A DNA stretch of 64,000 nucleotides, from the NCBI GenBank assembly GCA_030589895.1, contig JAUUZQ010000003.1:1-64000 (forward strand), written 5' to 3'. Positions 36,638-60,304 of the stretch are shown here, piece after piece. Each line of letters starts with the position of its first letter. The first letter of the stretch is position 1. A model generated the notes under the pieces. It had not been told where the DNA came from. It searched no databases and saw only the letters and a program-made list of their open reading frames with translations. Made by a program: the position numbers and the translations under genes. This DNA is from Bacteroidales bacterium. Its GTDB lineage: Bacteria > Bacteroidota > Bacteroidia > Bacteroidales > GCA-2748055.

Positions 36638-36901
36638 CTGTCTTAATTAAACTTTTAGAAGTTCAGGGCATTTATTCGAAAAATCATACATGTAATACGC
36701 TTTTCCCCACTTACTTGTTTCATCAGGGCCAATAAAAAATTTCAGTCTCAATGAATTAAATAATTTCCAGTCTCTAATATACTGAATTTATGTGATTTAA
36801 CACAATCAAACTTCAAAACCTATTCTTGAACATATTTGGCAGAGCATATGTATAATCCTTTAAATTTGTGTCCTTATGACAATACTAAAAACTATTTAAA
36901 T

Positions 36902-38239
36902 ATGTCAAAAAAGAAAGTTATAATTATCGGAGCAGCCGGAAGGGATTTTCACAACTTCAACACCTATTTCAGAGACAATGAAGATTTCAATGTGCTTGCA
37001 TTCACGGCAGCTCAAATTCCTGATATTGAAGGAAGAAAATATCCTCATGAATTAGCGGGTTCGCTATATCCTGATGGTATTCCAATATATGCTGAAAAGG
37101 AATTACCACGCCTTATCAAAGACCTTGAAGTCGATAATTGTGTCTTCTCTTATAGCGATTTGCCCTATAACAGAGTAATGAATATCAGTGCTATTGTTAA
37201 TGCAGCAGGTGCAAATTTTGAATTGCTTGGAACCAAAGATACAATGGTTAAAAGCACCTTACCCCTTATTGCTGTAGGCGCTGTCAGGACCGGCTGCGGA
37301 AAGAGCCAGACTTCAAGAAGAATAATTGAGATCCTGATGGAAAAAGGACTTAAGGTTGTTGCCATACGTCATCCTATGCCATACGGGGATCTTGTGGCGC
37401 AAAAGGTTCAACGCTTTGCCACAATTGATGACCTGGCCAAACACGAATGTACAATTGAAGAAATGGAGGAGTATGAACCGCATATAGTAAGGGGAAATGT
37501 TATTTATGCAGGTGTTGATTATGAAGCGATTTTGCGTGCAGCTGAGAATGATCCTGACGGATGTGATGTAATACTCTGGGATGGTGGTAACAACGACTTT
37601 CCATTCTATGTACCAGACCTGACAGTAACAGTTGCTGACCCTCACCGTCCGGGTCATGAACTATCATATTATCCAGGGGAAGTAACCATGCGAATTGCAG
37701 ATGTAGTGGTAATAAACAAGATGGACACAGCATCACCTGAAAACATACAGATTGTCAGGGAAAGTATTGCTGCAGTAAACCCTTCAGCAATAGTTATTGA
37801 TGGTGCATCACCAATATCAGTGGAGGATCCTTCTGTTATAAAAGGGAAACGCGTATTGGTTGTTGAAGATGGTCCAACACTTACCCATGGTGAGATGAAG
37901 CTGGGGGCCGGAACTGTAGCGGCAAAGAAATTCGGAGCTGTTGCTTTGGTTGACCCAAGACCCTATACTGTTGGCAAAATGAGTGAAACTTTTACTATTT
38001 ATCCAAATATTGGAACACTGCTTCCGGCCATGGGATATGGAAAAGAACAGCTAAAAGATCTCGAAACAACAATCAATAATACAGAGTGCGATTCAGTAGT
38101 CATTGGAACTCCTATTGACCTCAATCGCCTGATAAATATTGAGAAACCCAATACACGTGTTTTCTATGATCTTCAGGAAATCGGATCACCAAATCTCGAT
38201 GAGGTATTGGATGATTTTGTAAAGAAGCATAAGTTGTAG
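36902..38239 (+). CDS. Cyclic 2,3-diphosphoglycerate synthase-like GTPase
   Basis: KKVIIIGAAGRDFHNFNTYFRDN...LIAVGAVRTGCGKSQTSRRI...WDGGNNDFPFYVPDLTVTVADPHRPGHE. Confidence 0.85.
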   Translation: MSKKKVIIIGAAGRDFHNFNTYFRDNEDFNVLAFTAAQIPDIEGRKYPHELAGSLYPDGIPIYAEKELPRLIKDLEVDNCVFSYSDLPYNRVMNISAIVNAAGANFELLGTKDTMVKSTLPLIAVGAVRTGCGKSQTSRRIIEILMEKGLKVVAIRHPMPYGDLVAQKVQRFATIDDLAKHECTIEEMEEYEPHIVRGNVIYAGVDYEAILRAAENDPDGCDVILWDGGNNDFPFYVPDLTVTVADPHRPGHELSYYPGEVTMRIADVVVINKMDTASPENIQIVRESIAAVNPSAIVIDGASPISVEDPSVIKGKRVLVVEDGPTLTHGEMKLGAGTVAAKKFGAVALVDPRPYTVGKMSETFTIYPNIGTLLPAMGYGKEQLKDLETTINNTECDSVVIGTPIDLNRLINIEKPNTRVFYDLQEIGSPNLDEVLDDFVKKHKL

Positions 38240-41141: not shown

Positions 41142-41960
41142 CTATTCCTCCGGGCAATCCACATCCTGAAGCAGGCTATCCCAGCAATGCCATAGTGCAT
41201 CACCAAAATGATCTGTATTTTTAACCCTGCCGGCCGAATTGGTGGTGCTCCACTCAATATAAGTATACCCATCGCCAGTCATTACAGTATAATATGCGTC
41301 ATAGTCGTTTGCAGGATCTATTCCATAAGCAATATATGCCTGGTATAAATCATTATCCTGATCAATAACCGTATAACGTATATTTGCTGAATTAGCGTCA
41401 AAATCTTTGTTATATTCAATCTCCAGGAATGCTACAGGATTATACGGACTGTGATTCACCGACCATGTTGCCACTGAATGATCATAGCTGATGACTCCGG
41501 AAAACCATAAAAAATCAGTAAAATCATCCTCCCCGGATTTTGACAGGTACATCTCAATTGAGAAGGTTTCATTATCTATTCTGGTTCCAATTAATGATGC
41601 CTCATAAATAACACTATTCACAGGTACACTGTAACTCCACTCCCATGACTCATCCCCCAGATACATCGGAGTATGGTTGAAAGCCTCTGCATAAGCTGCT
41701 ATTGGAATGGCAACATTTATGACCAGAACCGATTGCCATATAAATATGGTGCCAAAGGAATATCCAAAATTGCCTTGTGAAACAATTGCTGATTTATTTC
41801 CAGCTCCAGCTGAGGGAAACAAATCCATGTCAATCTGAAGAGATTCTGTTGGCGGAAGATCCATTACCTTGGGTGAATTTTCACAGGAGGTAAATGTGAT
41901 TGCTAATCCCATCACTAAGACTAACAAATATGCTGCGGATTTAAAGAATTTCAATCTCAT
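41142..41960 (-). CDS. Hypothetical lipoprotein
   Basis: MRLKFFKSAAYLLVLVMGLAITFTSCENSPK lipobox; no domain recognised. Confidence 0.75.
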   Translation of the reverse strand: MRLKFFKSAAYLLVLVMGLAITFTSCENSPKVMDLPPTESLQIDMDLFPSAGAGNKSAIVSQGNFGYSFGTIFIWQSVLVINVAIPIAAYAEAFNHTPMYLGDESWEWSYSVPVNSVIYEASLIGTRIDNETFSIEMYLSKSGEDDFTDFLWFSGVISYDHSVATWSVNHSPYNPVAFLEIEYNKDFDANSANIRYTVIDQDNDLYQAYIAYGIDPANDYDAYYTVMTGDGYTYIEWSTTNSAGRVKNTDHFGDALWHCWDSLLQDVDCPEE

Positions 41961-42474: not shown

Positions 42475-44118
42475 TTACTGAACCATTACAGGTAAGCACG
42501 AATTTGCGCCATCTTTAAACATGAGATTCAAATAGTACACTCCCGGCTTAGCGGAAATTGAAATACTGTGGAAATTACCTTCACCGTCATTAACAAAGGG
42601 AATGTCTCTACCAAATAAATCATGCAGTTTCATTGAGCTGATTTTGATTTGTTCTCCGGATAAGCGAACATAAAATTCTCCATTGTTTGGATTCGGATAA
42701 ATACTGGCTTCATTCTCAGCTCTTTCTATCTCTATCCCAATTGGCCTGTCCACGAATACTACCATCAAAGCAGAGTCACAGGCGCCCGGATTGGCCTCCA
42801 TACAGACTTTATAGCCAATGGTATCATAAGCCTGATTAAATGTAGATTCCGGATAGTAAGTAATTGAATTATCAGTTTCCAAAGTGGCAGTGCCGTGAGC
42901 AGGTTGCTGGTTTATAGAAACATTTATGGCACCGGGTAAAATATCATTGTAAAGAACCAGGTAAGAAAATGATGAGCCCCCGTACATGGTAAGCAGATCA
43001 TTGAAGCACTCTGGTTGAACAAACTCTATATCTACACTAAACCCATAAATTGCAAATGCCATAATGTTACCTGATAAATCAGAAACACCATTGATCACCA
43101 ATGTATAATTACCATTTTCAATATCGGCAACAGCTAATTTAATCGCTTTCTGCTCTGCTGACAGAAATGTTGCACTTTCAACAACTACTTCTGAGCTTAT
43201 CTGATAATTACCTGCAAGTAGTGCACTTGCAGGATCAAGTGGCTCATTGAACCAGAGAACAAGCATATCAGTCGCATTAGCAGTTATGCTGTCAATCTCA
43301 GGCGGTAATTCATCAACAGAGCCCCCTTCATATAACAAAGCAACATATTCAGGATTATCAATAAAGGGATTCCGGTTTCCCTGCAGTACATATACGGCAT
43401 CATTCCTCTCCTCTTCCTTCGCACTAACCAGATCATCGTTATGCCATTGCATAAGCATCACTCTCGCCCATGGTTTAGGCTGTGCTCCATCGGTCATGCC
43501 ACTACCTATCCAACTATTGTCTTCCCCATAATACCTTGTAGCCATATAGAAATAAGTTCTGGCAAAATCTCCTTTGTATTCATCAATAGGCTCAAAAATA
43601 GTTCCTGTATAGCCTGCAACAGAACAAGAACCCAATTTTGACCCATTTAGTGATGTCCAGGAAGGTGAATTTGTTTCACCAAAGGGATAATTGCTCCGCT
43701 TACCGTTTACATAACCATCCGTAGGATAGAGATGAAAAAGATCAGTGTTCATTGGAGCTATATCTCCAAACCAGCTTTTTGGGAAAGAGTGCTCCCGATT
43801 ATAGCAACTCCCCTCACCTGAATAATTCCCACATTGGTCGGAAACAAAGGTATAGACATAAGGCTCTTCACCATCCGGATTGTCTGAGTACATATCCCAA
43901 ACAGTTCCATCGGCTTTATCATCTGTTGTTTTAAAAGCCGTCCAGAGGGAAGCATAACTCTGAATTGTATGGTTATCAATAATATCGTGAAGCGCCTGCT
44001 GGAGCTCCTCCCCTGATTTACCGGAAGCCGTATTATAATAGTTTGCAGGCTGTGCCAAGGTAATGGCAATAGCAAGCTGACAAATAAATATGCTTAGAAT
44101 TATTCTCTTCACTATCAT
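42475..44118 (-). CDS. Secreted endonuclease I family nuclease with T9SS type A sorting domain
   Basis: CYNREHSFPKSWFGD...MNTDLFHLYPTDGYVNGKRSNYPFGE; Ig-like region; C-terminal SIYPNPNNGEFYVRL...PGVYYLNLMF. Confidence 0.88.
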   Translation of the reverse strand: MIVKRIILSIFICQLAIAITLAQPANYYNTASGKSGEELQQALHDIIDNHTIQSYASLWTAFKTTDDKADGTVWDMYSDNPDGEEPYVYTFVSDQCGNYSGEGSCYNREHSFPKSWFGDIAPMNTDLFHLYPTDGYVNGKRSNYPFGETNSPSWTSLNGSKLGSCSVAGYTGTIFEPIDEYKGDFARTYFYMATRYYGEDNSWIGSGMTDGAQPKPWARVMLMQWHNDDLVSAKEEERNDAVYVLQGNRNPFIDNPEYVALLYEGGSVDELPPEIDSITANATDMLVLWFNEPLDPASALLAGNYQISSEVVVESATFLSAEQKAIKLAVADIENGNYTLVINGVSDLSGNIMAFAIYGFSVDIEFVQPECFNDLLTMYGGSSFSYLVLYNDILPGAINVSINQQPAHGTATLETDNSITYYPESTFNQAYDTIGYKVCMEANPGACDSALMVVFVDRPIGIEIERAENEASIYPNPNNGEFYVRLSGEQIKISSMKLHDLFGRDIPFVNDGEGNFHSISISAKPGVYYLNLMFKDGANSCLPVMVQ

Positions 44119-44142
44119 CCCCTCCGATTTACTGAATCACGA

Positions 44143-46626
44143 CTATTCAATCGCAATTTTTCTGAAAACGTGCTGTCCATCACTCATCTCAATATTCAGA
44201 TAGTAAATTCCCACTGATAAGTCACTTATGTTAATTGAACTGTTCTCCTGATTTATATTATCTCCCCTGTAAACTACTCTTCCAGATTGATCGATCAACT
44301 CCAAATCCTGTATTCTCAAATCAGAATCAACTGAAATATATACCAGCTCCCTCGCTGGATTAGGATAAACATTAACCAAATTCTCTATATCAAAGGAATG
44401 AACTCCAATCGGCCTATTCACATATATCACCATCAATGCAGAATCGCATATACCCGGACTATCGGCCATACATACCTTGTATCCAACAGTATCTATATCC
44501 AGATTGAATGTAGTATTTGGATAATAAGTTATCGTTTGGTCTGTTTCCACCTCCGCAGAACCGTTACTTGGCTGCTGATTAATAGTAACTATAACATCCC
44601 CAGGCAGATTGTCGTTAAACAGCACGTCGTACCTGAATGAAGATCCACCATACATAGTTAAGAATTCATTTTCACATTCAGGCTTTGGCACAACCAGTTG
44701 TCCATGTGAAAATCGCACCACAAAATCCTGGTAATAAGCATTGGCAACTCCCTGGTCGTGAATAATCAGTGTATTTTCATCATTCCTGAACTGGGCTGAG
44801 GAACTCCAGTTATGTGAACCGGTAAGCAATACAGGATCGGAATCAGGAAATCCCTGATCTACGATCATATATTTGTGGTGCATAATACCAGCCTCACCTG
44901 CTACCCTGATATCTTCACCAAGGCTCGCTTTTAAGGTATTAACTATAGGTTCGCCATACGAATCAAAGTCATTGATAAGAACTTTTGCATCAACACCAGC
45001 ATCATTTTTATCAGCAATATCATAGCCTATATCTGTCTTTGTGATCAACATTGTAGCAATGAATAATTGATGATCAGCACTCTCGATTGTATTGCGAATT
45101 TTTGTATGCGTTCCATCTGAGGGACTAAAATAACACTCCACATCTTTACCATTAATAATAAAATGATGTGGGGTATTATCTTTCTTATCTGGCCCAAATT
45201 TTGAATTTCCGGCATCTGGTTGTGCAGCATTGGTTCCAAACATTTCATTGAATTCAAGCTGGAATGCAATGGCAAGACTCTTATCCTGAATAATGATAAC
45301 ATTATTAGGATCCCTATTGATCTGTCCATCTGTAAAATTCGTAGCACCTGTCCAGACAAACGGAAGATCCGGGTCAGAGGCATTCGCATCAAACACAACA
45401 AATTTATTGTGCATGATTCCATATAATGGATACTCTGACTTAGGACTGGCAATTTTGCCAATAGCTCCAGTCAAAGTTGTTACACCAAGGTTAGCAGTAT
45501 TGCTATCATAGATAAACCTGACAATTACACCTCTGGTATGTGCAGCATTTAGCGCATCAGTAATATTTGAAATTCCATAATTATTAAAATTATAGATAGT
45601 GAAATCAATAGACTCTGTTGCACGATCGATATACTTTATAAGGGTATCATCAATGGCATGATCAAGAAATTCCGCTTCCAATAATCCAAGTGAAACAGAT
45701 GGATCAACTGTAGAATTAAAATAAGCTTTCATGTCGCCACTCGATTCAGACTGTGTGATATAAACCTGAACCGCAGATTTGGCTGTATCTTCGCCTGATA
45801 CTGAAAAAGGTTGTATGTAAATCAGTTCTGATGCTTGTAATCCTGTCAACTCAAGCGTATGAGATGTTGATTCTCCTGATACAAAAAGATCTGTTCCCTC
45901 CATTGCAGGAGTATTCCCAATAAATGCTTCAGTGGAGCCAGCCACATCTGTGGTCCAATCAAGGGTAAATCCAGTTTTCGACAAGTTGCTAAGTACTGCC
46001 AGGCTAGTAAGATTAATAATGCTTGATGAGAGAATGTCAAATTGATCGCGCGGCAATAGCTGATAGGTATCACTATAAGCCCCAAGTGGCCCAATAAGAG
46101 TAACTTCATTGGTAGGAATGACAGTTCCAATTAAGGGTGAGCTGGAAGAGTTAATATAAATCTGTCCAGCCTCATCACCTGAAGTATAAGTATATGATTT
46201 TCTCTCAAAACTTCCAGAGGCATCAAAATTCACATTCTCAATTCGCACCAACATACCTTCGTATTGCTCTGCCTGCTGTGATGGTGTCAATACAACTGCT
46301 GCTGGCAATGCATTTCCAGTTGAGTTTACTGTAAAAGAGGTCACAGGATCCATCTCAAGCAATGTGTTGTACTCCTTTAGAAGCCCTGTAATTGTAATCT
46401 CGTCTCCCCTGTTAACATCTGCAAGAGTTGATGAATAGGCTGCAAATCCGGCAGTTGCATCCTGTATATATCTGATAGGACCCAGTTCATCACCATTGAT
46501 TACTATTCCGGTAACAGTTACTGTTGCTCCAGCTCCTGCAGCCCTGGCTTCAGCGATGGTCATCTGTGCATTTAAAGATATCCAGCCAGCCAGAAGCATT
46601 ATTGTAAAAAATATACTCTTCTTCAT
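44143..46626 (-). CDS. Secreted phospholipase D-like (two HKD motifs) protein with N-terminal OB-fold-like region and T9SS sorting domain
   Basis: HNKFVVFD...TGATNFTDGQINRDPNNV and HHKYMIVDQ...LLTGSHNWSSSAQFRNDEN; C-terminal NVYPNPARELVYISVD. Confidence 0.87.
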   Translation of the reverse strand: MKKSIFFTIMLLAGWISLNAQMTIAEARAAGAGATVTVTGIVINGDELGPIRYIQDATAGFAAYSSTLADVNRGDEITITGLLKEYNTLLEMDPVTSFTVNSTGNALPAAVVLTPSQQAEQYEGMLVRIENVNFDASGSFERKSYTYTSGDEAGQIYINSSSSPLIGTVIPTNEVTLIGPLGAYSDTYQLLPRDQFDILSSSIINLTSLAVLSNLSKTGFTLDWTTDVAGSTEAFIGNTPAMEGTDLFVSGESTSHTLELTGLQASELIYIQPFSVSGEDTAKSAVQVYITQSESSGDMKAYFNSTVDPSVSLGLLEAEFLDHAIDDTLIKYIDRATESIDFTIYNFNNYGISNITDALNAAHTRGVIVRFIYDSNTANLGVTTLTGAIGKIASPKSEYPLYGIMHNKFVVFDANASDPDLPFVWTGATNFTDGQINRDPNNVIIIQDKSLAIAFQLEFNEMFGTNAAQPDAGNSKFGPDKKDNTPHHFIINGKDVECYFSPSDGTHTKIRNTIESADHQLFIATMLITKTDIGYDIADKNDAGVDAKVLINDFDSYGEPIVNTLKASLGEDIRVAGEAGIMHHKYMIVDQGFPDSDPVLLTGSHNWSSSAQFRNDENTLIIHDQGVANAYYQDFVVRFSHGQLVVPKPECENEFLTMYGGSSFRYDVLFNDNLPGDVIVTINQQPSNGSAEVETDQTITYYPNTTFNLDIDTVGYKVCMADSPGICDSALMVIYVNRPIGVHSFDIENLVNVYPNPARELVYISVDSDLRIQDLELIDQSGRVVYRGDNINQENSSINISDLSVGIYYLNIEMSDGQHVFRKIAIE

Positions 46627-46637
46627 TCTAATTTATT

Positions 46638-49403
46638 TTAAAAAGTTACACGCAGGGAAGTTGTAAATCTTCTTCCCATTCCAAAAAATACTGTAGCCGA
46701 TTTTGCATCAAAATCCTGAAACTCTGAATAAGGACCATAAGAGTCATTATTAGTTGCATCCCAAATATATGTTGTATTAAACACGTTTAGCATTGAGAAT
46801 CTAAGGCTAAATCCAGTCTGTTCAAAAGACTTAAATCTAAAACTGTATCCTGTATGAATATCGAACAGATTGAAATCAGGAATGATCCATGAATCATGTA
46901 CATTGCCTTCATCATCTGTAGTCGCTTCAGGAGTAAAACTTGAATAATATTTCCCGAAGAAAGTCTGACGTACATTGATATAAAATCCTTTAAAAGGCTG
47001 ATACCTAAGACTTGATCCTAATTGAGTCTGTGCTGCATCTCCCACATGAATACCACGTGCATCAAAATCCAGCACTTTATTCACTGCAGGAAAGCTACCC
47101 TCATTCAGATAGAACTGAAGATTCTCAACATATGAATCCCAAATCCAGTCACCTAAAGAAACAGTCGCCTGAAAATCAAGATTGTGTCTTATTTTATAAA
47201 TAAAATCCAATTCTACTCCCATATGTCTTGCATCCATTCCGGGAATATCTGCATACACTGGCTTTCCATTGTTTGAATCCGGGTCACCCTCAACATATCC
47301 AGGGTCTCCGGGGAGTAGATCATATACTGAATAAACCCTGTTTGTTGGCTTATTTTCCCAGCGGGTATAATATGCATTCATGAAAAGGGAAAAACGTGGC
47401 GTAGCGTAATTATATCCTAATTCAATAGCTTTAATAAGTTCATTATCCTGCTCTTCAGCAAAATTTACAGTATAACCCTGATAAAAGTATTTATAGGCCC
47501 TCACCCTTGAAAGATAGCCAAGGTTTAGGAATAGATTAGATCTCTCGGTGAGATTATAGTTAGCCCCACCTTTGATAGTAGCTCCCTGCTTATATTTCCA
47601 ACCGGATTCAGCTTCATGGAAGTAATCAATCCTGTTATAGCCACTCACTGCAGTGGTCAAATTTATAAAAGCAGATAGTCTGTTTTGGGAATATTCAAGC
47701 TGTCCAAACAATCCTCCCCATCGAACCAAACCATCATTAAAATAGTCGATGGTATCACCCACGTATTTCATGGCTGCTTGCGGATTTGTAACATAATCGG
47801 GTCGCTGATCTGTGCTCGAAATGGCATAATCACCTCCCAACAGATCAGTTATAGTAGTAAAATGAATCCCCTTATAAGATCGTAAATCTACACCCCCGCT
47901 AATATCTACATTTTGATTGAGTTTGAAATTTACTTTTGTTAGCAGACCATACCAGTAGTGCTCATTATGAGCCCGCGTCATGTAATTACTTGCATAAGTT
48001 AATGAATCGTCGTACTGTGGAGCAATTGGCTTAACATTGAATGGTGGTTGCTCTTTCCAATTGGCTTCATAAACACTCTGCCAATCAATCTGTCCGTACT
48101 TAGGGTCAGAAGGATCCTGGAATAAATTTGGATCTTTCATGCTATGTGCCGGTCTGTCGCCTCCCCCTTTACCAACAGAAAGATAGATATTATTTGATAC
48201 CGTTAAACGATCAGATACAGTCCAGAAATCCCGTACTGTAAACTGTGGTTTGTGGTATTGATTGTTTCGTTCAGAGAGATGTTCTTCGACGGCATCAGGA
48301 TTATCCTTATTTCTTACAAACGTACCCCAATGCTGGTTATATCCTACTCCGGCACCATAAATATTATACTGATCATTTGCTGCCCTGAGCTCACCAAGAT
48401 CAATATCCAGATTTTGGGCATATGCAGTATCATATGCTGAGATTGGTCTCTTATAAGAACGATGATCATGCGTCTGTGGTGCACCCATTGCGGTAACCGT
48501 AATGAGGTGATTTTTCATTCTCTTGTCCACTTTTGCATAATAAAACCACCCTTCAGAAAATGTATTGTCTACCCAGCCGTTACCACGTTTATATGAACCG
48601 GCAAGAGTAAGCCCCCAGCCATTGGCAAGTTTTCCACTGGTGTACCCGAATGAGGAAGTCAATTTACCCTGGCTATCGACAGACTGTTTTATCGAGGTCT
48701 GTTTTTTATTCTCAATGCCTTTTGTAAGGATATTAATTGTTCCTCCAACGGAAGGAAGTGCGAGTTGTGAAGCACCCAGTCCACGCTGCACCTGCATGGT
48801 ACGTGTAACAGCCTCAAGACCAAACCAATTTGACCAATATACCCAACCATTCTCCATATCATTCACAGGTATTCCATCAATCATTACAGCCAGATTTGTC
48901 TGGTCGAATCCCCTGATGGTAATTCTTGCATCCCCATCGCCACCACCCTGCTGTGTTGCATAAACACCGGGGGTAGTATTCAGGATCATTGGAAGGTCCT
49001 GACCTGCCAGTTCTTCCTGAATTTTTGCCGGGCTCACATTGGTGAAAGCCACAGGAGTTTCCCTCGAGATGGCCATATCTGCTACAATCACAACTTCATC
49101 AATGGTCATGGATGTCATTTCAACATCCAGCATAACAGGCTTTCTTTCCAGGGATATGTGTTTGACTTCAGCCAGGTAACCAACATAAGAGATATTCAGG
49201 GTATATTCACCCGGAGGCAATTTTAGTGCAAACTGACCATTATAATCCGTGACCGTCCCCATTGAGGGTCCATAGACAATATTTGCTCCAATCAGAGTTT
49301 CACCTGTTTGAGCATCACGAACGACTCCTGTAATTGTCGAACTCTGACTAAACAGCGAAACTGTCAGGCATGACATAAATAAAACAATAAGAAATTTTTT
49401 CAT
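46638..49403 (-). CDS. TonB-dependent receptor with N-terminal carboxypeptidase-regulatory-like domain
   Basis: SSTITGVVRDAQTGETLIGANIVY...; plug RITIRGFDQTNLAVMIDGIPVND...VGGTINILTKG; long beta-barrel. Confidence 0.92.
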   Translation of the reverse strand: MKKFLIVLFMSCLTVSLFSQSSTITGVVRDAQTGETLIGANIVYGPSMGTVTDYNGQFALKLPPGEYTLNISYVGYLAEVKHISLERKPVMLDVEMTSMTIDEVVIVADMAISRETPVAFTNVSPAKIQEELAGQDLPMILNTTPGVYATQQGGGDGDARITIRGFDQTNLAVMIDGIPVNDMENGWVYWSNWFGLEAVTRTMQVQRGLGASQLALPSVGGTINILTKGIENKKQTSIKQSVDSQGKLTSSFGYTSGKLANGWGLTLAGSYKRGNGWVDNTFSEGWFYYAKVDKRMKNHLITVTAMGAPQTHDHRSYKRPISAYDTAYAQNLDIDLGELRAANDQYNIYGAGVGYNQHWGTFVRNKDNPDAVEEHLSERNNQYHKPQFTVRDFWTVSDRLTVSNNIYLSVGKGGGDRPAHSMKDPNLFQDPSDPKYGQIDWQSVYEANWKEQPPFNVKPIAPQYDDSLTYASNYMTRAHNEHYWYGLLTKVNFKLNQNVDISGGVDLRSYKGIHFTTITDLLGGDYAISSTDQRPDYVTNPQAAMKYVGDTIDYFNDGLVRWGGLFGQLEYSQNRLSAFINLTTAVSGYNRIDYFHEAESGWKYKQGATIKGGANYNLTERSNLFLNLGYLSRVRAYKYFYQGYTVNFAEEQDNELIKAIELGYNYATPRFSLFMNAYYTRWENKPTNRVYSVYDLLPGDPGYVEGDPDSNNGKPVYADIPGMDARHMGVELDFIYKIRHNLDFQATVSLGDWIWDSYVENLQFYLNEGSFPAVNKVLDFDARGIHVGDAAQTQLGSSLRYQPFKGFYINVRQTFFGKYYSSFTPEATTDDEGNVHDSWIIPDFNLFDIHTGYSFRFKSFEQTGFSLRFSMLNVFNTTYIWDATNNDSYGPYSEFQDFDAKSATVFFGMGRRFTTSLRVTF

Positions 49404-49483
49404 CTATAATAAGTTTTAACCATCACATATAGAATGAAATAGTAACAAATCCTACTGTGACACCATCTGAAGAATAAGAAATT

Positions 49484-50533
49484 TTACTGCTTCACCAATT
49501 TCCTGGTAATAAAATTGTTTCCGCTACGTGCTCTGATCAAGTATATACCCTGATCAAAATCATCCATATTTATCATTTTCTCCCGGATACCCTTTAGTTC
49601 TGTTAGGGATAAAATAATTTTACCCGAAAGATCCATTACCTGAAGATCATCAATTCCTTCATTAGAAGATATTGTTACATATCCATCAGCAGGATTAGGA
49701 TAGACACTTAATGATGGTCCTGCCACTCCCAGTTCGATAGCTGTTGCAAATTCACAATCGCAATAATGAGCATTCAGCGAATCCCATTGATCAACACCAC
49801 CGGGAACTGTATCCCACTCAGTTGTAACAACAAATTCCAAAGTAGGCATAGTCTCAACAGTAATGCCTTTTTTCACGCCCGGTTTTCTTACCAACGAATG
49901 ATTGGAAGTCCATGGAAGCCAATAATATGTCGCCGGAACAATATAATTTGAAATATATACACTATCCTGACCTATAATTAAATCACCATCATATATATTT
50001 TTATACACCCACACATCTGTAAATGATGCCCAACCTTGTCCGTCTGAGGGCATTCCTCCTCCAACAATTCCAAACAAGTCTACCACCTTAAAATCTGCAT
50101 CAGTTCCAGTGTTCCCTATCTTTTTAAACAGGGCAATTGCATCATTTCCATTCATATATGTCGGGGCCGGATAATCATGGTCCAGCTGTTGTGCTTTTGC
50201 TCTTAAATTTGGATCTGAAGCAGGGGATGTATCCGTACTGGTAGTCTGTCCATTTACCAAAAAATGTGTTGAATAAGGCTGTATGAAACCTTGTAATTGG
50301 GTTATTCCTCCAGCAGTATATGTGTTACTCCCATTGCTATATCTGGCAACATGATAATCTCCCAGATTTATAATCTCAGAAGTGGGATTGTATATCTCCA
50401 CCCCTTTATTATTTCCACTTCCTTCGAGATATTCTGAAATGAATAACTCGGAACAATCCTGCGCTGAGACTACTGAAAACAAGGTCAGAAATCCCAACAT
50501 AATAAATAAATTTCTTCGCATTCTTATGTTCAT
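49484..50533 (-). CDS. Lamin-tail-domain protein with T9SS type A sorting domain
   Basis: CSELFISEYLEGSGNNKGVEIYNPTSEIINLGDYHVARYSNG...; C-terminal SVYPNPADGYVTISS...GIYLIRARSGN. Start could also be 50578. Confidence 0.85.
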   Translation of the reverse strand: MNIRMRRNLFIMLGFLTLFSVVSAQDCSELFISEYLEGSGNNKGVEIYNPTSEIINLGDYHVARYSNGSNTYTAGGITQLQGFIQPYSTHFLVNGQTTSTDTSPASDPNLRAKAQQLDHDYPAPTYMNGNDAIALFKKIGNTGTDADFKVVDLFGIVGGGMPSDGQGWASFTDVWVYKNIYDGDLIIGQDSVYISNYIVPATYYWLPWTSNHSLVRKPGVKKGITVETMPTLEFVVTTEWDTVPGGVDQWDSLNAHYCDCEFATAIELGVAGPSLSVYPNPADGYVTISSNEGIDDLQVMDLSGKIILSLTELKGIREKMINMDDFDQGIYLIRARSGNNFITRKLVKQ

Positions 50534-50665
50534 TATTAAATTCTTCGATACAAATGAAATCGGAAAAGAAAGATTCATCTTCTCCTATAAACAAATAATA
50601 TCAGATAAAAAACCAGAACGACATTCTAAGATATCGTTCTGGTATTAATTATTCAATATTTAAGT

Positions 50666-53600
50666 TTACTCCTTGATAAATCTCACAACGCCAGTGGTAT
50701 CATCGCTGGTCATTCTGACCATATAGATACCGCTGTTAAGTGAAGACACATCGAGTGTAATAGTAGATTGTCCGCTATTATTAACATTCATAACAGCAGC
50801 TCCTGTAATATCGAAAATGGTCATACTTTGTACTTCCTCGATATTTTCCATATAGAGCTTATTCACAGCAGGAACAGGATAAACATTCACATTGTTGAAC
50901 AGGCTATTCTCAACACCTACTTCAACAGTGAACAGAACTGTATAAGTCTTCTCAGTTGTTCCATCCTCCGCAGTAACAAGTACTGAAGTTGTACGTGCTG
51001 CTTCATCTCCACCCAGATCAGTAGCAGGAGTAACATCTATTATAGCTAAACCATCATCTGTAGCTGTAGCAGTTACCACAGGAACATCAGTTGTTCCGGC
51101 AGTCAGGGTCATAAAATATGACAACTGTGCAGGGCTAAATCCTGTAACAGATGTTCCATCAACCATCAGGTCGCTAAGTGTAGCATCATCAGAAGGCAGA
51201 GGAATAACCAGGGTATGATAACCCAGGCTATCGAAATAATTCTGATCCATTACAATCCATTCTGAATTGTCAGCATTGGTTCCCGCACTGGAAGCCCAAT
51301 CGGTATTTCCTTCCATTACAGTTCCTTTTCTGAGAAGTGTATGCTCTTTTGTTGCATTCGTTACACCTGCAACATCCCAGCCATCACCCGGATCAGGACC
51401 AATTTCTCCGATAATATCAACCAGGGTAGTATCAACAGAAGTAATAACCACCATACCTCTTGCGTCATCACCGTTATGGTGTACAGGACTTGGATATCCC
51501 ATCACTTCATCGGCACCATCGTGAGCAAATAATGTAACATCAACCTCATCGGTAATAATTACATAATTCTCATGTGATCCCAATATTGTGCCAGCAGGGA
51601 AAACATGGAAATATTCCCAATTATCACCACCATTGCTTATTTGAGCAAGTTGATAGTAATCCATTCTCACTGCTTCATCATTAGGATTGAAAATTTCAAT
51701 TGCTTTATTGTTTCCACTTCCCTCTATATACTCTGAGAAAATAAGCTCTCCAGGCATACCTGCATCAACAGTAATGGTATAAGTTTTAGTTGTTGCGCCA
51801 TCTTCAGCGGTAACAATCAATTTATAATCTGTCATAACATCAGTTGCTTCGGTTGTACCATCAGCTTGATAGGTCATAAATGTTGCACCTGCAGCAGGAA
51901 TCACCAATGCTTCAAATGAAACAAGATCAGACTTATAAAGTACACCAGCAATAGTTCCAGCTCCATCGTCAACTGTGTAAACAACAGATGTAACACTTGC
52001 ATCATCACTTAATGGATCTTTTGTAACAACATAAGCCTTGGTAACATTACTATCTTGTGACGTTACTATCAACTGATAACCAGTTTGAAGATCTGTTGCT
52101 ACTGTAGTGCCGTCAGCTTCATACACCATAAATGTAGCTCCGTATACAGGAACAATATTGCCCTCCAAAGTCGCAAGATCTTCTAAGGCAGGAACAGCAG
52201 TTATAGTACTTCCTGCATCATCAACTGTGTATACATCAGATGTTACCGAAGCCTCGGCAGATGGAATTTCAACAACGTCGCCTGCAGCTGTTGGATAAAC
52301 TCTCCAATCGCCATAGGAATAGGATAATGGACCCGTGATATCGTATGTGCCACCCAAATTAAGCGTTGCTTCATAATAAGGATCATCAGTCAAAATCACA
52401 CCACTTCCATCATCAACTTCTGCTTCGCCATAATTGTTGGCTTCTGTTACGACGACTGCTGAGCTGAGTTTTACAATAACACCTTCAAGTGTCTCACCTG
52501 CTCCACCAGTTGTCACATCTACAGGTGCAGGAACAGCTTTCCCGGATGCAATATTTTCAAAGGAGAAAAGACTGGTCATTTGCGTTAAAGAATAATACTC
52601 ATCAACTGTACCGGCAATAACAATACTATCACCAACAACAGGCATATTAACATCATCTCTAACAACCACTCCACTATAATCTCCTCCAATACCATCTGAA
52701 ATATAATACTCATCTTTACCATTGGCATAAGAAACAATACCTGTAGTTATGCACACTGTATCTTCATATAATGCAATTACATCGCTCTGAATATCATAAA
52801 TACTGAGCATAGGAACAATTGCAAAAATTTCAGAATCATCCATTGGCTCTCCTGCCAGGAATGTCACATTAGTTGCTTCGGTAATGCGAATCATACCTTG
52901 CAATGTTGCTGGAGAATCAGTAGGAATTGTATAATCTACTGTTCCTGTTGTTGGAGAAATATCTTCAACAATAGGCGCCCACAATCCACCGGCATCAAAT
53001 GAAACCCAGATTGTGATATTACCCACGAATTCAGCATTCCAGTCTATGTGTAAATCCTGTCCGGGATAGAATGCCTCCCCACCAGCGGGATAGGTCACCT
53101 CAATCACAGGAGTTGCAACACCAATAGTAGTAAATGATGCGCTTTGCACAAGATCTGCTGCATTACCTGCTGCGTCCTCTACAACATTAGCTTTGAGAGC
53201 AGCATAGTAGACCTGATCATTGGCCAGATCGGCGTCAGGGTCTATGGTAATAATTGTTTTTTCTGCATTAATAGAGACAGTACTGGCAACATCCGCACCA
53301 GCATTGTCGGTGAGCTTTAGTTCAACCAGAGCAGATGCATCTGTAATTTCAGTTCCACCAACATTTAAAATAGCCTCATCGAATGTAAGGGTGATATTTG
53401 AGTTAATCGCTACACTGGTAGCTGCTTCCAGTGGAGAAAATACCACAACTGGTGGCGCAACATCGGCAAGCTCTTCAAATACAAAATCATCCCAATAAGT
53501 TACAGCACCGCTATAGGTTCTCACTTCAAGAGCTAATGCGGCTGCCGCAGCAGGAGCTGTAACAATAGCAGAGTAATATAACCATTCCCCTGTACCGTTA

Positions 53601-53989
53601 GGCAAATATCCACCGTCAGGACCTCTTATTGATCCTTGAGTATCGTCGTAAAGACCTGCACCGGAACCATCCTCCCATACACACCATATTCTTGAATCAT
53701 CGCCATCTCCTGGAACAACTTTATACCAAAAACTAAGTTGGTATTCTTTTTCTGCAGTGACCGCAATATCTTGGGCAATATCTTTGGTGCCACCAGTATG
53801 TTTTGCAGAATAAGTCCCTGAATGAACATTTGCTGCTACCGATTCCTGATCCACATTCTCCGCTTTAGTCCAACTTGTTGGATGAGTTGCATCATCCCAA
53901 GCTTCAAACCCCGGGTTTAAAACCAGGTTCTGCGCTGATACTGAAAACGCCAGTATTGCCAAAATTGATAATAAGTAGTATTTCTTCAT
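50666..53989 (-). CDS. Large T9SS-exported multidomain protein (carbohydrate-binding-like, Ig-like, OB-fold-like, lamin-tail, cadherin-like)
   Basis: NLVLNPGFEAWDDATHPTSW; SbsA-like Ig; ITTGIVSYANGKDEYYISDGIG OB-like; ELIFSEYIEGSGNNKAIEIFNPNDE lamin-tail; NVYPVPAVNKLYMEN sorting domain. Confidence 0.82.
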   Translation of the reverse strand: MKKYYLLSILAILAFSVSAQNLVLNPGFEAWDDATHPTSWTKAENVDQESVAANVHSGTYSAKHTGGTKDIAQDIAVTAEKEYQLSFWYKVVPGDGDDSRIWCVWEDGSGAGLYDDTQGSIRGPDGGYLPNGTGEWLYYSAIVTAPAAAAALALEVRTYSGAVTYWDDFVFEELADVAPPVVVFSPLEAATSVAINSNITLTFDEAILNVGGTEITDASALVELKLTDNAGADVASTVSINAEKTIITIDPDADLANDQVYYAALKANVVEDAAGNAADLVQSASFTTIGVATPVIEVTYPAGGEAFYPGQDLHIDWNAEFVGNITIWVSFDAGGLWAPIVEDISPTTGTVDYTIPTDSPATLQGMIRITEATNVTFLAGEPMDDSEIFAIVPMLSIYDIQSDVIALYEDTVCITTGIVSYANGKDEYYISDGIGGDYSGVVVRDDVNMPVVGDSIVIAGTVDEYYSLTQMTSLFSFENIASGKAVPAPVDVTTGGAGETLEGVIVKLSSAVVVTEANNYGEAEVDDGSGVILTDDPYYEATLNLGGTYDITGPLSYSYGDWRVYPTAAGDVVEIPSAEASVTSDVYTVDDAGSTITAVPALEDLATLEGNIVPVYGATFMVYEADGTTVATDLQTGYQLIVTSQDSNVTKAYVVTKDPLSDDASVTSVVYTVDDGAGTIAGVLYKSDLVSFEALVIPAAGATFMTYQADGTTEATDVMTDYKLIVTAEDGATTKTYTITVDAGMPGELIFSEYIEGSGNNKAIEIFNPNDEAVRMDYYQLAQISNGGDNWEYFHVFPAGTILGSHENYVIITDEVDVTLFAHDGADEVMGYPSPVHHNGDDARGMVVITSVDTTLVDIIGEIGPDPGDGWDVAGVTNATKEHTLLRKGTVMEGNTDWASSAGTNADNSEWIVMDQNYFDSLGYHTLVIPLPSDDATLSDLMVDGTSVTGFSPAQLSYFMTLTAGTTDVPVVTATATDDGLAIIDVTPATDLGGDEAARTTSVLVTAEDGTTEKTYTVLFTVEVGVENSLFNNVNVYPVPAVNKLYMENIEEVQSMTIFDITGAAVMNVNNSGQSTITLDVSSLNSGIYMVRMTSDDTTGVVRFIKE

Positions 53990-56927: not shown

Positions 56928-59900
56928 TTATTTGTACTTAATTACCTGTGACACACCATTGCTCAGGCTAATTTCCTCGTCACAAATATGGACTTTTATT
57001 TCCTTATTTTGTTCAGATTCAGAAATAATTTTAATCTCAGAGTCAGAAACAGTTAGCTCATATTTAACAGCTCTATAGTGGAAACTAAATTTCAGGGATT
57101 TCCATCCTCCCGGTAAAGCAGGAGTAAATTTGGGATCCTCTCCGGAAATATCCAAGCCTGCATAAGATACCATGGCATCAAATACAGTTCCGGCCATTAC
57201 ACCACAATGTACACCCTCCCCGGTTGTCCCCCCCTGTATATCTATAAGGTCACTTTCCAACGCTTCCATATACAACTTCCATCCAATATCTTTCAAACCG
57301 GCTTGATATGCAAGCCTGGCATGGACCAAACGACTTAGGGTTGACCCATGTGATGTTCTGGCGATATAGTAATCAAAATTTCTGGTGATATAATCGACAG
57401 GTACAGTATATCCAAGCTCTTCAATGATTTTGCTCACTTCATCGTTACCGAGGTTATAAAATGTCATTAAAAAATCTGCTTGCTTGGCAAGTTTGTACTC
57501 ATCGGGCGATTCTCCTTCAGCCTTTAATATCCTGTCCATACGGTGCAGGTCATCATATTTTTCCCGAAATGAATCCCAGTCAAGCTCTTTCAAACTGAAA
57601 TACCCCCTGAATTGTTCAATTACCCCATCCTCATTAAGGTTCAAAGCCAATAGTTTTCTAACATCCTCCCAATGAGTCAGGTCCTTATCAGTAAGATTAA
57701 TTTTCTTCAGGACTTTCGCAAAAATATCCTCATCAAAAGAACCCTTAAAATCATTCACCTTCCCAAGCATCCAGCTTACCATGATATTCGAGTAAGCATT
57801 ATCTGTTACTCCACCAACATCTGTTCCGGGCAACTGCTCATGAAACTCATCCGGACCCATTACTTTATCAATATGATATCGCTCGTCTGACTCCCATAAA
57901 GCTGATTTACTAATCCAGAATTTACAAATATCCATGTAAAGCTCAAGGCCATAATCAGTCATAAAATCCTTGTCATCTGTAGCCAGATAATAATTCCACA
58001 CATTATAGGCAATGGCCAGAGAAATATGTCTTTGAAGAGAACTGTAGTCATCACCCCATTCGCCTGAGAGTGGATTCAGATGTACAGTTTGGGTCTCTTC
58101 CCTCCCATCACTTCCGCTCTGCCAGGGAAACATCGCTCCTTCATATCCATATTCTTTTGCGTATTCCCTGGCTTTTTCAATCCTGTTGTAGCGATACATC
58201 AGAACAGATCTTGTAACTTCAGGAAAATGAATATTGTAAATTGGAAGAATATAGAGTTCGTCCCAGAATATATGTCCCCTGTATGCTTCTCCATGTAATC
58301 CCCTTGGAGCAATACCAGCGTCTAATCCGGCGTGATGAGGGGATGCCGACACCATCATGTGATAGAGGTGCATACGCAATAATTTTTGCGCCTTTCGGTC
58401 ACCTTCAACTTTCAGATCAATTTCATCCCAGATACCCTTCCAGCTCTGTGTTGATTTCTTCAATTCATCTTCAAATGAATTCATCGCCATTAAAGCAACA
58501 GAAGAGTCCTGCATAGGATGCATAGAATCTTTTTCACGGGATGTATAGATGCTTACCAATTTATCAATTAAGATTTCTTTCCCCTCCTCTGCAGCAATCT
58601 GAATTATTTCAATGATGCAAGACTTTCCGGATTTGCGTGTCCTAACAATATCTACTGATGCAGCTCCAAAAACATCATGTCTGGCTGCCATTGCAATCTC
58701 AACATCAGATTGATTTGTCCTGACCAGCAATTTAAGATGCTCTCCTTCAATTGTTTCGCTTACAGACTCTAAATGTTTCTGGTTCAACTGCTTATACCTT
58801 TCAACCCCCGCATTGATATGGTCTGCCGATATGGAAGATTCAATCTCCAGTTTTGCAGAGTAGTTCAATGGTGTGAGTGCATAACTTATCCCGGCACTGT
58901 GCTTATCATGCATGCCTGCAAAACGGATGGATTTAACAGCTGTTCTTCTCTGCTGCTCATCCGTAACAATCATCTCCCTTATGAGGAGGCCACTCTTCAT
59001 ATCAAGACGGCGATGAATTTTTTCGATAGTAAACGAACTCTCCGGAGTAAATTCAAACCAATCCCCTCCATCAATTCTAAATTTTACAGGAAGCCAATTA
59101 GATATATTCACAAAATCCTCGTTTTCAAGATCCCTTCCTGCAACTTGAGAAACACGTCGATTAAAAAGTCCTGAAATATAGGTTCCCGGATAGTTGACAG
59201 CATTCGCTTTGCTTTCTTCCATCGCTCCGCGGGTGCCGAAATATCCATTCCCAACAGTAAGAAGCGCTTCTCTTGATCGCTCCATTTGCTGTTCATAATC
59301 GTAATATTCCAGGTGCCACGAATTCTCCTCCATCCCGGTGGAAAACCATTCGTTGATACTCTCCATGCTAACTTCACCCAAATCTTCAACCACAATATCA
59401 CCACCATTAATTTGTAATTCCCTCACATTATCCTCCCGGGCAACACCAATTACCAATCCGAAATTCCCTTTTCGACCAGCCTGAACACCGGAAACTGCAT
59501 CTTCAACTACCACAGACCTATGATACTCAACTCCAAGCCGGTCGCATGCTGTCGTAAAAATATCAGGTTCCGGTTTCCCCTCCAGTCCAATTTCTGCCGA
59601 TACAACACCATCGATCCTGGTTTCAAAAAAATGCATCAGATTCGCTTTCTCAAGAACCGGCTTACAGTTCTTGCTTGAAGAAGCCACTCCTATTCTGATA
59701 CCTGCAGCTTTCAACTTATGAAGAAGATCAACTGTAGAATCGTAAACTTTCACACCCTCTTCATCCAAAACCTGATTAAACAAAAAGTTTTTCCTGTTTC
59801 CAATGGCACACACAGTTTCCAGGGCAGGATCATCTGATGGATCTCCAAATGGAATATCAATTCCCCGTGATTCAAAAAACGATGCCACACCCTTATACCT

Positions 59901-60086
59901 GGGTTTTCCATCTACATACGGAAGGTAATCATCTGCATGGGTAAATTCTTTGAAAGGCTCTCCAAATCTCTCCTCCCGGGACCTGAGATAATCGTTGAAC
60001 ATCTTTCTCCATGCCGACCCATGAACCAAAGCAGTTTGCGTAATCACCCCATCGAGATCAAAAATAACAGCATCGAAATTGAACAT
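56928..60086 (-). CDS. Fused beta-phosphoglucomutase-like HAD / GH65 glycoside phosphorylase
   Basis: N-terminus FDAVIFDLDGVITQTALVHGSAW...KPEPDIFTTACDRLGV...VVVEDAVSGVQAG; C-terminus YRGHIFWDELYILPIY...VMGPDEFHEQLPGTDVGGVTDNAYSNIM. Confidence 0.9.
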   Translation of the reverse strand: MFNFDAVIFDLDGVITQTALVHGSAWRKMFNDYLRSREERFGEPFKEFTHADDYLPYVDGKPRYKGVASFFESRGIDIPFGDPSDDPALETVCAIGNRKNFLFNQVLDEEGVKVYDSTVDLLHKLKAAGIRIGVASSSKNCKPVLEKANLMHFFETRIDGVVSAEIGLEGKPEPDIFTTACDRLGVEYHRSVVVEDAVSGVQAGRKGNFGLVIGVAREDNVRELQINGGDIVVEDLGEVSMESINEWFSTGMEENSWHLEYYDYEQQMERSREALLTVGNGYFGTRGAMEESKANAVNYPGTYISGLFNRRVSQVAGRDLENEDFVNISNWLPVKFRIDGGDWFEFTPESSFTIEKIHRRLDMKSGLLIREMIVTDEQQRRTAVKSIRFAGMHDKHSAGISYALTPLNYSAKLEIESSISADHINAGVERYKQLNQKHLESVSETIEGEHLKLLVRTNQSDVEIAMAARHDVFGAASVDIVRTRKSGKSCIIEIIQIAAEEGKEILIDKLVSIYTSREKDSMHPMQDSSVALMAMNSFEDELKKSTQSWKGIWDEIDLKVEGDRKAQKLLRMHLYHMMVSASPHHAGLDAGIAPRGLHGEAYRGHIFWDELYILPIYNIHFPEVTRSVLMYRYNRIEKAREYAKEYGYEGAMFPWQSGSDGREETQTVHLNPLSGEWGDDYSSLQRHISLAIAYNVWNYYLATDDKDFMTDYGLELYMDICKFWISKSALWESDERYHIDKVMGPDEFHEQLPGTDVGGVTDNAYSNIMVSWMLGKVNDFKGSFDEDIFAKVLKKINLTDKDLTHWEDVRKLLALNLNEDGVIEQFRGYFSLKELDWDSFREKYDDLHRMDRILKAEGESPDEYKLAKQADFLMTFYNLGNDEVSKIIEELGYTVPVDYITRNFDYYIARTSHGSTLSRLVHARLAYQAGLKDIGWKLYMEALESDLIDIQGGTTGEGVHCGVMAGTVFDAMVSYAGLDISGEDPKFTPALPGGWKSLKFSFHYRAVKYELTVSDSEIKIISESEQNKEIKVHICDEEISLSNGVSQVIKYK

Positions 60087-60304
60087 ACTTATCAAATTTT
60101 TAGGTGTAAAGTTGTTTTACGCTCTCAAGCAATCTATTTTTATAGAAGCTTTTAAACAAAGGTAGAAGGAAAAAGGTAAAAGGAAAGTACTGAATGTCTT
60201 TTATGACTATATTGTCATAAGAAGTTTCAGATCCTTGAGAACTTACAAAAATTGAAAATATTCTTTCTTCAGGAGCATATGAAACATAGCGTAAAAACAA
60301 CTCA

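Follow-up and report, generated by a model that had tools for sequence, protein, structure and literature searches.

Members of the Bacteroidota are counted among the main consumers of sedimentary extracellular DNA (PMC8289736), and the literature that we found gives no route by which the products of this degradation cross the outer membrane in this phylum. The locus described here lies in a window of 64,000 nucleotides (the whole stretch of DNA that was analysed) from a Bacteroidales bacterium, and it raises the question of whether a TonB-dependent receptor encoded next to secreted nucleases could be part of such a route. The answer that we favour is that this is likely a nucleic-acid acquisition locus built around a single outer-membrane receptor, with cutting at the surface, TonB-dependent import and processing in the periplasm.

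The locus encodes a predicted TonB-dependent receptor and four predicted secreted proteins

A sequence-only reading of the window had proposed five consecutive same-strand genes, encoding two lamin-tail-domain (LTD) proteins, a receptor, an endonuclease I family protein and a PLD-type protein. We confirmed all five open reading frames at the positions given there, on the minus strand, and all the Pfam domains of their products scored above the cut-offs. The features of the region are:

50666-53989, minus strand: LTD1, 1107 aa, secreted; CBM4_9-like domain (CBM_4_9), Big_5, ExeM-type OB region, cadherin-like repeats, LTD and T9SS tail
50612-50643, minus strand: terminator-like hairpin and T-run between LTD1 and LTD2 (consensus match only)
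49484-50578, minus strand: LTD2, LTD and T9SS type A tail (Pfam); first gene of the conserved core
46638-49403, minus strand: predicted TonB-dependent receptor, 921 aa, non-SusC type, CarbopepD_reg_2 and Plug (Pfam); second gene of the core
44143-46626, minus strand: PLD-type nuclease (PLD), DUF5689, two PLDc_2, Big_9 and T9SS tail (Pfam); third gene of the core
42475-44118, minus strand: EndoI, Endonuclease_1, Big_9 and T9SS tail (Pfam); second nuclease of the locus
41142-41960, minus strand: predicted lipoprotein, 272 aa, no Pfam match; just downstream of the cassette

The hairpin is a strong one, with a 13-pair stem followed by the T-run, and is terminator-like. Because it lies between LTD1 and LTD2, LTD1 probably stands wholly or in part as a unit of its own, and LTD2, receptor, PLD and EndoI would form a four-gene operon, with gaps of about 80 bp, 11 bp and 24 bp, respectively. 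Thus, the five reading frames, their strand and their domains stood as first described, but not their arrangement as one uninterrupted set. Since Met20 of LTD2 is invariant in 55 homologues, the true start of this protein is probably at this residue, about position 50521.

As had been proposed, each of the four non-receptor proteins carries a T9SS type A tail at its C-terminus (Por_Secre_tail above the cut-off); note that their signal peptides were judged by eye only. SprA is present in the genome, so the T9SS is expected to work in this organism. The lipoprotein gene is conserved in this downstream place in several genomes of the same family (loci L054, L055, L057 and L059), and it is possibly an associated gene of the cassette.

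The conserved unit is an LTD2-receptor-nuclease cassette

Among 100 relatives, the receptor and PLD genes were adjacent in most of the genomes that carry close relatives of both on an adequate contig, and in four of the 100 (G002, G057, G072 and G093) a protein with OB and endonuclease I domains follows the receptor instead of PLD. A receptor-only scan of the GTDB genomes returned 80 named Bacteroidota loci, from Bacteroidales, Flavobacteriales, Crocinitomicaceae, Saprospiraceae and Chitinophagales; nine were cut by a contig end and 71 were untruncated. The cultivable Brumimicrobium oceani (L240) is one of the carriers of the cassette. The nuclease type was called with catalytic-domain models only, since models containing OB segments cross-hit. 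A nuclease lay beside the receptor in 69 of the 71 untruncated loci. It was directly downstream in 66 (PLD in 33, endonuclease I in 33), with a median gap of 20 bp, and in three more a PLD gene lay two genes upstream; two of the 71 had no recognised nuclease near the receptor. In 72 of 77 loci, the gene directly upstream of the receptor encoded an LTD protein. By our own arithmetic, any one single-copy gene would be among the four nearest neighbours of another gene in about one case in 800 (for about 3,300 genes, a number estimated from genome size). In a contrast set of 52 looser receptor loci, two of which are themselves cassettes, a nuclease lay within three genes of the receptor in eight, and an LTD gene was present in two, both of them the cassettes.

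On this comparison of gene order, the conserved unit is one of three genes: LTD2, the TonB-dependent receptor and a secreted nuclease. A lack of conserved synteny, which the sequence-only reading had named as a refuting outcome, was not observed: this order is strongly conserved in all five groups covered by the scan. EndoI is the only Endonuclease_1 gene of the window genome, and the same layout turns up throughout the phylum, which argues that it is not due to chance. That the genes are mere co-inherited neighbours, without a joint function, we regard as scarcely credible: in close relatives the chromosomal surroundings of the locus are also alike, but the order of the genes is retained, with these short gaps, across many contexts and taxonomic orders.

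LTD1 does not belong to this unit. Most relatives lack it or have another gene in its place, and this, together with the hairpin that separates it, ruled it out as a core member; LTD1 is a variable accessory gene. In G008, G009, G012 and G025 its region holds a protein with LTD, DUF5017, DUF5689 and T9SS domains. The ExeM-type OB region of LTD1 spans residues 444-522. The AlphaFold model of LTD2 matched T9SS C-terminal domains and, weakly, lamin and generic Ig domains, and offered no functional clue. The same model also had a weak fold match to the Bacteroides DUF4876 protein BT_1938 (4q1z), which may correspond to LTD2 in Bacteroides of the gut.

Some loci depart from the usual layout. The exceptions to the upstream position of the LTD gene include L256, with a small spurious ORF, and L208 (1967-5920), where the LTD protein and the receptor appear as a single 1318-aa ORF that may be a true fusion or a sequencing error. 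Locus L218 (4055-19377) carries a cassette with three consecutive endonuclease I proteins and an upstream DUF5017/DUF5689 protein.

Unrelated nucleases take each other's place behind the receptor

Both nucleases of the window have the residues expected of their families. EndoI matched Endonuclease_1 with 5.5e-82 (275.5 bits, against a Pfam cut-off of 25) and has the catalytic EH motif (REHSFPKSW). The PLD protein has two HxKxxxxD motifs, HNKFVVFD at 406 and HHKYMIVD at 583, whose residues H406/K408/D413 and H583/K585/D590 are invariant in 31 homologues, and its N-terminal DUF5689 domain overlaps an OB-type region of the ExeM/NucH kind (61-144). An EndoI gene also follows PLD in L054, L057, L059 and L198.

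When the nuclease type was mapped on the receptor tree, it changed 10 times, and at least eight of these changes are forced by well-supported branches. In L230 and L215 the flanking genes are orthologous on both sides (75 and 75% identity on one, 89, 70 and 61% on the other), as are the LTD genes (48%) and the receptors (64%); the nuclease slot, however, holds an OB-PLD protein in one locus and an endonuclease I in its counterpart, and the two enzymes share no similarity worth noting. The same swap separates L213 from L215, whose receptors are 75% identical and whose upstream flank is conserved. By these alignments, the three loci are a natural in-place exchange of OB-PLD and endonuclease I behind the same receptor. 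Since two unrelated enzymes have been exchanged behind one receptor, the receptor would be matched to the product and not to the enzyme.

Nucleic acid is the substrate that endonuclease I and PLD-type nucleases, two unrelated kinds of enzyme, have in common. Because enzymes of these two kinds are interchangeable here, the substrate of the cassette is very probably nucleic acid. The degradation of extracellular nucleic acid, as originally proposed, is therefore well supported, both by the conserved synteny and by the repeated replacement of PLD by an unrelated endonuclease I. The same replacement bears on the possibility, left by the sequence-only reading, that PLD acts on phospholipid. In this case the locus would scavenge lipid head groups and endonuclease I would be incidental. 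Genuine phospholipases D and lipid synthases are indeed among the best fold matches of the PLD model, but its best single-domain matches are the nucleases Nuc and NucT, at least 8-10 swaps between the two enzymes have taken place at this one position, and no lipid substrate is known for endonuclease I. We consider this explanation very improbable, and the exchange is the strongest point against it. Note that the fold itself was set aside as evidence for the substrate, since the model matches both nucleases and lipases.

The receptor is distantly related to a transformation receptor of Riemerella

Pfam identified the Plug and the carboxypeptidase-regulatory-like N-terminal domain of the receptor and gave no match for its barrel domain, and a PDB search returned generic N-terminal and plug matches only. 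The genome encodes no other close member of the receptor's family (by family query, the next TonB receptor is 24% identical), and on the tree the receptor stands apart from the other receptors of the genome. In this tree of 119 receptors, those of the cassettes form one clade, with support of 100. Many relatives of the receptor, 35-40% identical to it, lie next to no nuclease gene, and a role in nucleic acid handling therefore need not extend to the family at large.

In Riemerella anatipestifer, a study by transposon mutagenesis and markerless deletion found that RA0C_RS04915 and RA0C_RS04920 are essential for natural transformation (PMC8459023). RA0C_RS04915 is a carboxypeptidase-regulatory-like outer-membrane protein, and RA0C_RS04920 a DUF5689 and DUF5017 protein; for the passage of DNA through the outer membrane, the study found no match to known machinery (PMC8459023). 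In the same species, loss of tonBA reduced transformation and left iron uptake unimpaired (PMC8383284). We located the locus in genome G702, taken to be R. anatipestifer from an exact match to the comEC primer together with gene order and domains as in PMC8459023; the primer also matches G700, a second genome of the genus. The order is comEC, two genes, an EEP nuclease, the receptor and the DUF5689+DUF5017 gene. In L188 (3436-9131) and L190 (3110-8793), the Riemerella receptor and DUF5689 genes are divergent from the gene of the secreted EEP-type nuclease, which would be RA0C_RS04910; the passages of PMC8459023 consulted here do not discuss this nuclease as a competence gene.

The Riemerella receptor and that of the window are 22% identical over most of their length (E 5e-26). 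In the window genome, the window receptor is the best match of the Riemerella protein (3.9e-14, the runner-up having 2.3e-4), and the two have in common a plug signature, around NGxVxxxNWxGL, that the other receptors of the genome lack. However, transformation-type and cassette receptors fall into separate clades, both fully supported, and so, as judged from the tree, the two proteins are distant kin and not orthologues. The Riemerella pair (PMC8459023) resembles the cassette in its TonB-type receptor, plug signature, DUF5689-domain partner and adjoining nuclease gene, and differs in clade, in the low identity of the receptor, in its partner, a DUF5689+DUF5017 protein, in the EEP type of the nuclease and in its demonstrated role in transformation. 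Both kinds of locus occur side by side in the Bacteroidales locus L203 (5523-16270), where the cassette adjoins an EEP gene, an 840-aa receptor and a DUF5689+DUF5017 gene.

This kinship suggests another function, namely that the receptor takes up long DNA for natural transformation and not as food, the nucleases trimming or releasing ends and the DNA then passing through ComEC. The divergent EEP nuclease gene and the DUF5689 partner of the Riemerella receptor would fit this, as would the loss of transformation on markerless deletion of that receptor (PMC8459023), the contribution of tonBA (PMC8383284), the ComEC gene of the window genome and the composition of L203. However, the low identity and the separate clade argue against it; two nucleases at the surface should break down any transforming DNA, one lineage has 5'-nucleotidases after the cassette, the two sets of L203 suggest two different jobs, and ComEC is widespread (10 of 14 control genomes). 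We therefore consider transformation an unlikely function of the cassette. Import of DNA fragments or oligonucleotides by a TonB receptor is not shown in the literature that we found. We propose, tentatively and with somewhat less than even confidence, that the cassette receptor is such a TonB-driven importer, and that it and the Riemerella receptor may be two branches of one Bacteroidota superfamily, one with exchangeable nucleases, for feeding, and one with a DUF5689 protein, for transformation.

Genes for possible downstream processing

Behind the cassettes of Crocinitomicaceae and related loci come genes for a lipoprotein-like protein with 5_nucleotid_C and for a metallophosphatase, which we read as a putative split 5'-nucleotidase. 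Some more distant receptors of the family lie near EndoI+EEP fusions (L074) or near EndoI and a 5'-nucleotidase (L076), and in L139 and L149 an EndoI gene comes after a DUF5017-related partner. The window genome has two genes with 5'-nucleotidase domains, one CNT nucleoside transporter gene and ComEC, of which CNT alone is at all discriminating; the gene cluster of the window holds no inner-membrane transporter or 5'-nucleotidase gene. Elsewhere in the window, 56928-60095 encodes a fusion of a HAD hydrolase with an enzyme of glycoside hydrolase family 65, and 36836-38239 a 467-aa protein with no Pfam match that is strongly conserved in relatives and that, we assume, resembles cyclic 2,3-diphosphoglycerate synthetase.

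Import by the receptor is suggested indirectly by the constant linkage of the genes, by the kinship with the Riemerella receptor and, in one lineage, by the 5'-nucleotidases that follow the cassette. The imported material may be oligonucleotides, long DNA or smaller compounds; products that bear phosphate, or others, could also take the place of oligonucleotides. A further alternative is that the nucleases digest the DNA of biofilms, prey or competitors, while the receptor imports some other item set free, such as phosphate, a metal, a nucleoside or a cofactor. Secreted nucleases do serve in biofilm turnover elsewhere, as with Dns and Xds of Vibrio, and the plug region is weakly similar to that of B12 receptors, albeit far under the cut-off. 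Nevertheless, kin of the receptor are needed for DNA uptake in Riemerella (PMC8459023), and receptors of the cassette clade are almost never without a nuclease neighbour and the nuclease itself is exchangeable, which ties the receptor to the product of nucleic acid cleavage. We judge this alternative to be quite improbable.

Discussion

In the acquisition of nucleic acid that we favour, LTD2 and both nucleases would be exported by the T9SS, as their tails and SprA suggest, and would presumably be held at the cell surface or released. The families of the proteins and the interchangeability of the enzymes suggest that PLD and EndoI cut extracellular DNA, and probably RNA, and that the OB/DUF5689 module grips the nucleic acid. 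From its constant adjacency, LTD2 would accompany the receptor at the surface as a fixed partner and stand in for SusD. The TonB-powered receptor would then bring oligonucleotides or DNA fragments into the periplasm, where 5'-nucleotidases could convert them to nucleosides and phosphate, the nucleosides being taken up by a CNT-type transporter; both types of gene are present in the genome. The gain for the cell would be phosphate, nucleosides, nitrogen or carbon.

The locus had been called PUL-like, and this is a fair analogy: as in a SusCD-type PUL, genes for surface enzymes that degrade a polymer lie beside that of a TonB-dependent transporter, although the enzymes are nucleases and not glycosidases. 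The analogy is limited in that Pfam found no SusD among the cluster proteins, there being an LTD protein instead, and in that LTD1 is outside the conserved core. The PUS of Flavobacterium similarly combine a surface enzyme and a TonB-dependent transporter in one cluster, for the digestion and import of a polymer or an organic phosphate (PMC8115612); in contrast to PUL and PUS, the enzymes of the cassette are nucleases with T9SS tails. EndA1 and EndA2 of F. johnsoniae, LTD+EndoI nucleases of the outer membrane, are induced by phosphate starvation (4.66 and 4.13 transcript fold change) and were classed as orphans, outside any receptor cluster (PMC8115612).

ExeM/NucH, such as ExeM of Shewanella, also combine LTD and OB modules with a nuclease and are used on extracellular DNA, but as a single polypeptide with an EEP domain, whereas here the modules are spread over several proteins. 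The cluster has no EEP domain and scored 25-56 bits against NCBIfam cut-offs of 300 and 1300 for these families. The DNA-degradation loci of Ca. Izemoplasmatales likewise cluster nucleases, an LTD protein and transport genes for feeding on DNA; they differ in having ABC transporters, no outer membrane or TonB receptor, and another gene set, in another phylum (PMC8289736). We found no published LTD-receptor-nuclease cassette in the open-access literature, an absence that is no proof of novelty.

A phylum-wide cassette of three genes, with a fixed receptor and exchangeable nucleases, offers a specific and testable answer to the question of how the products of DNA degradation cross the outer membrane of Bacteroidota, and could serve as a genetic marker of DNA feeding in metagenomes. 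The kinship with the Riemerella receptor also points to a candidate path for DNA across the outer membrane during natural transformation. If the two-branch receptor superfamily is real, it would account for the passage of nucleic acid through the outer membrane of Bacteroidota.
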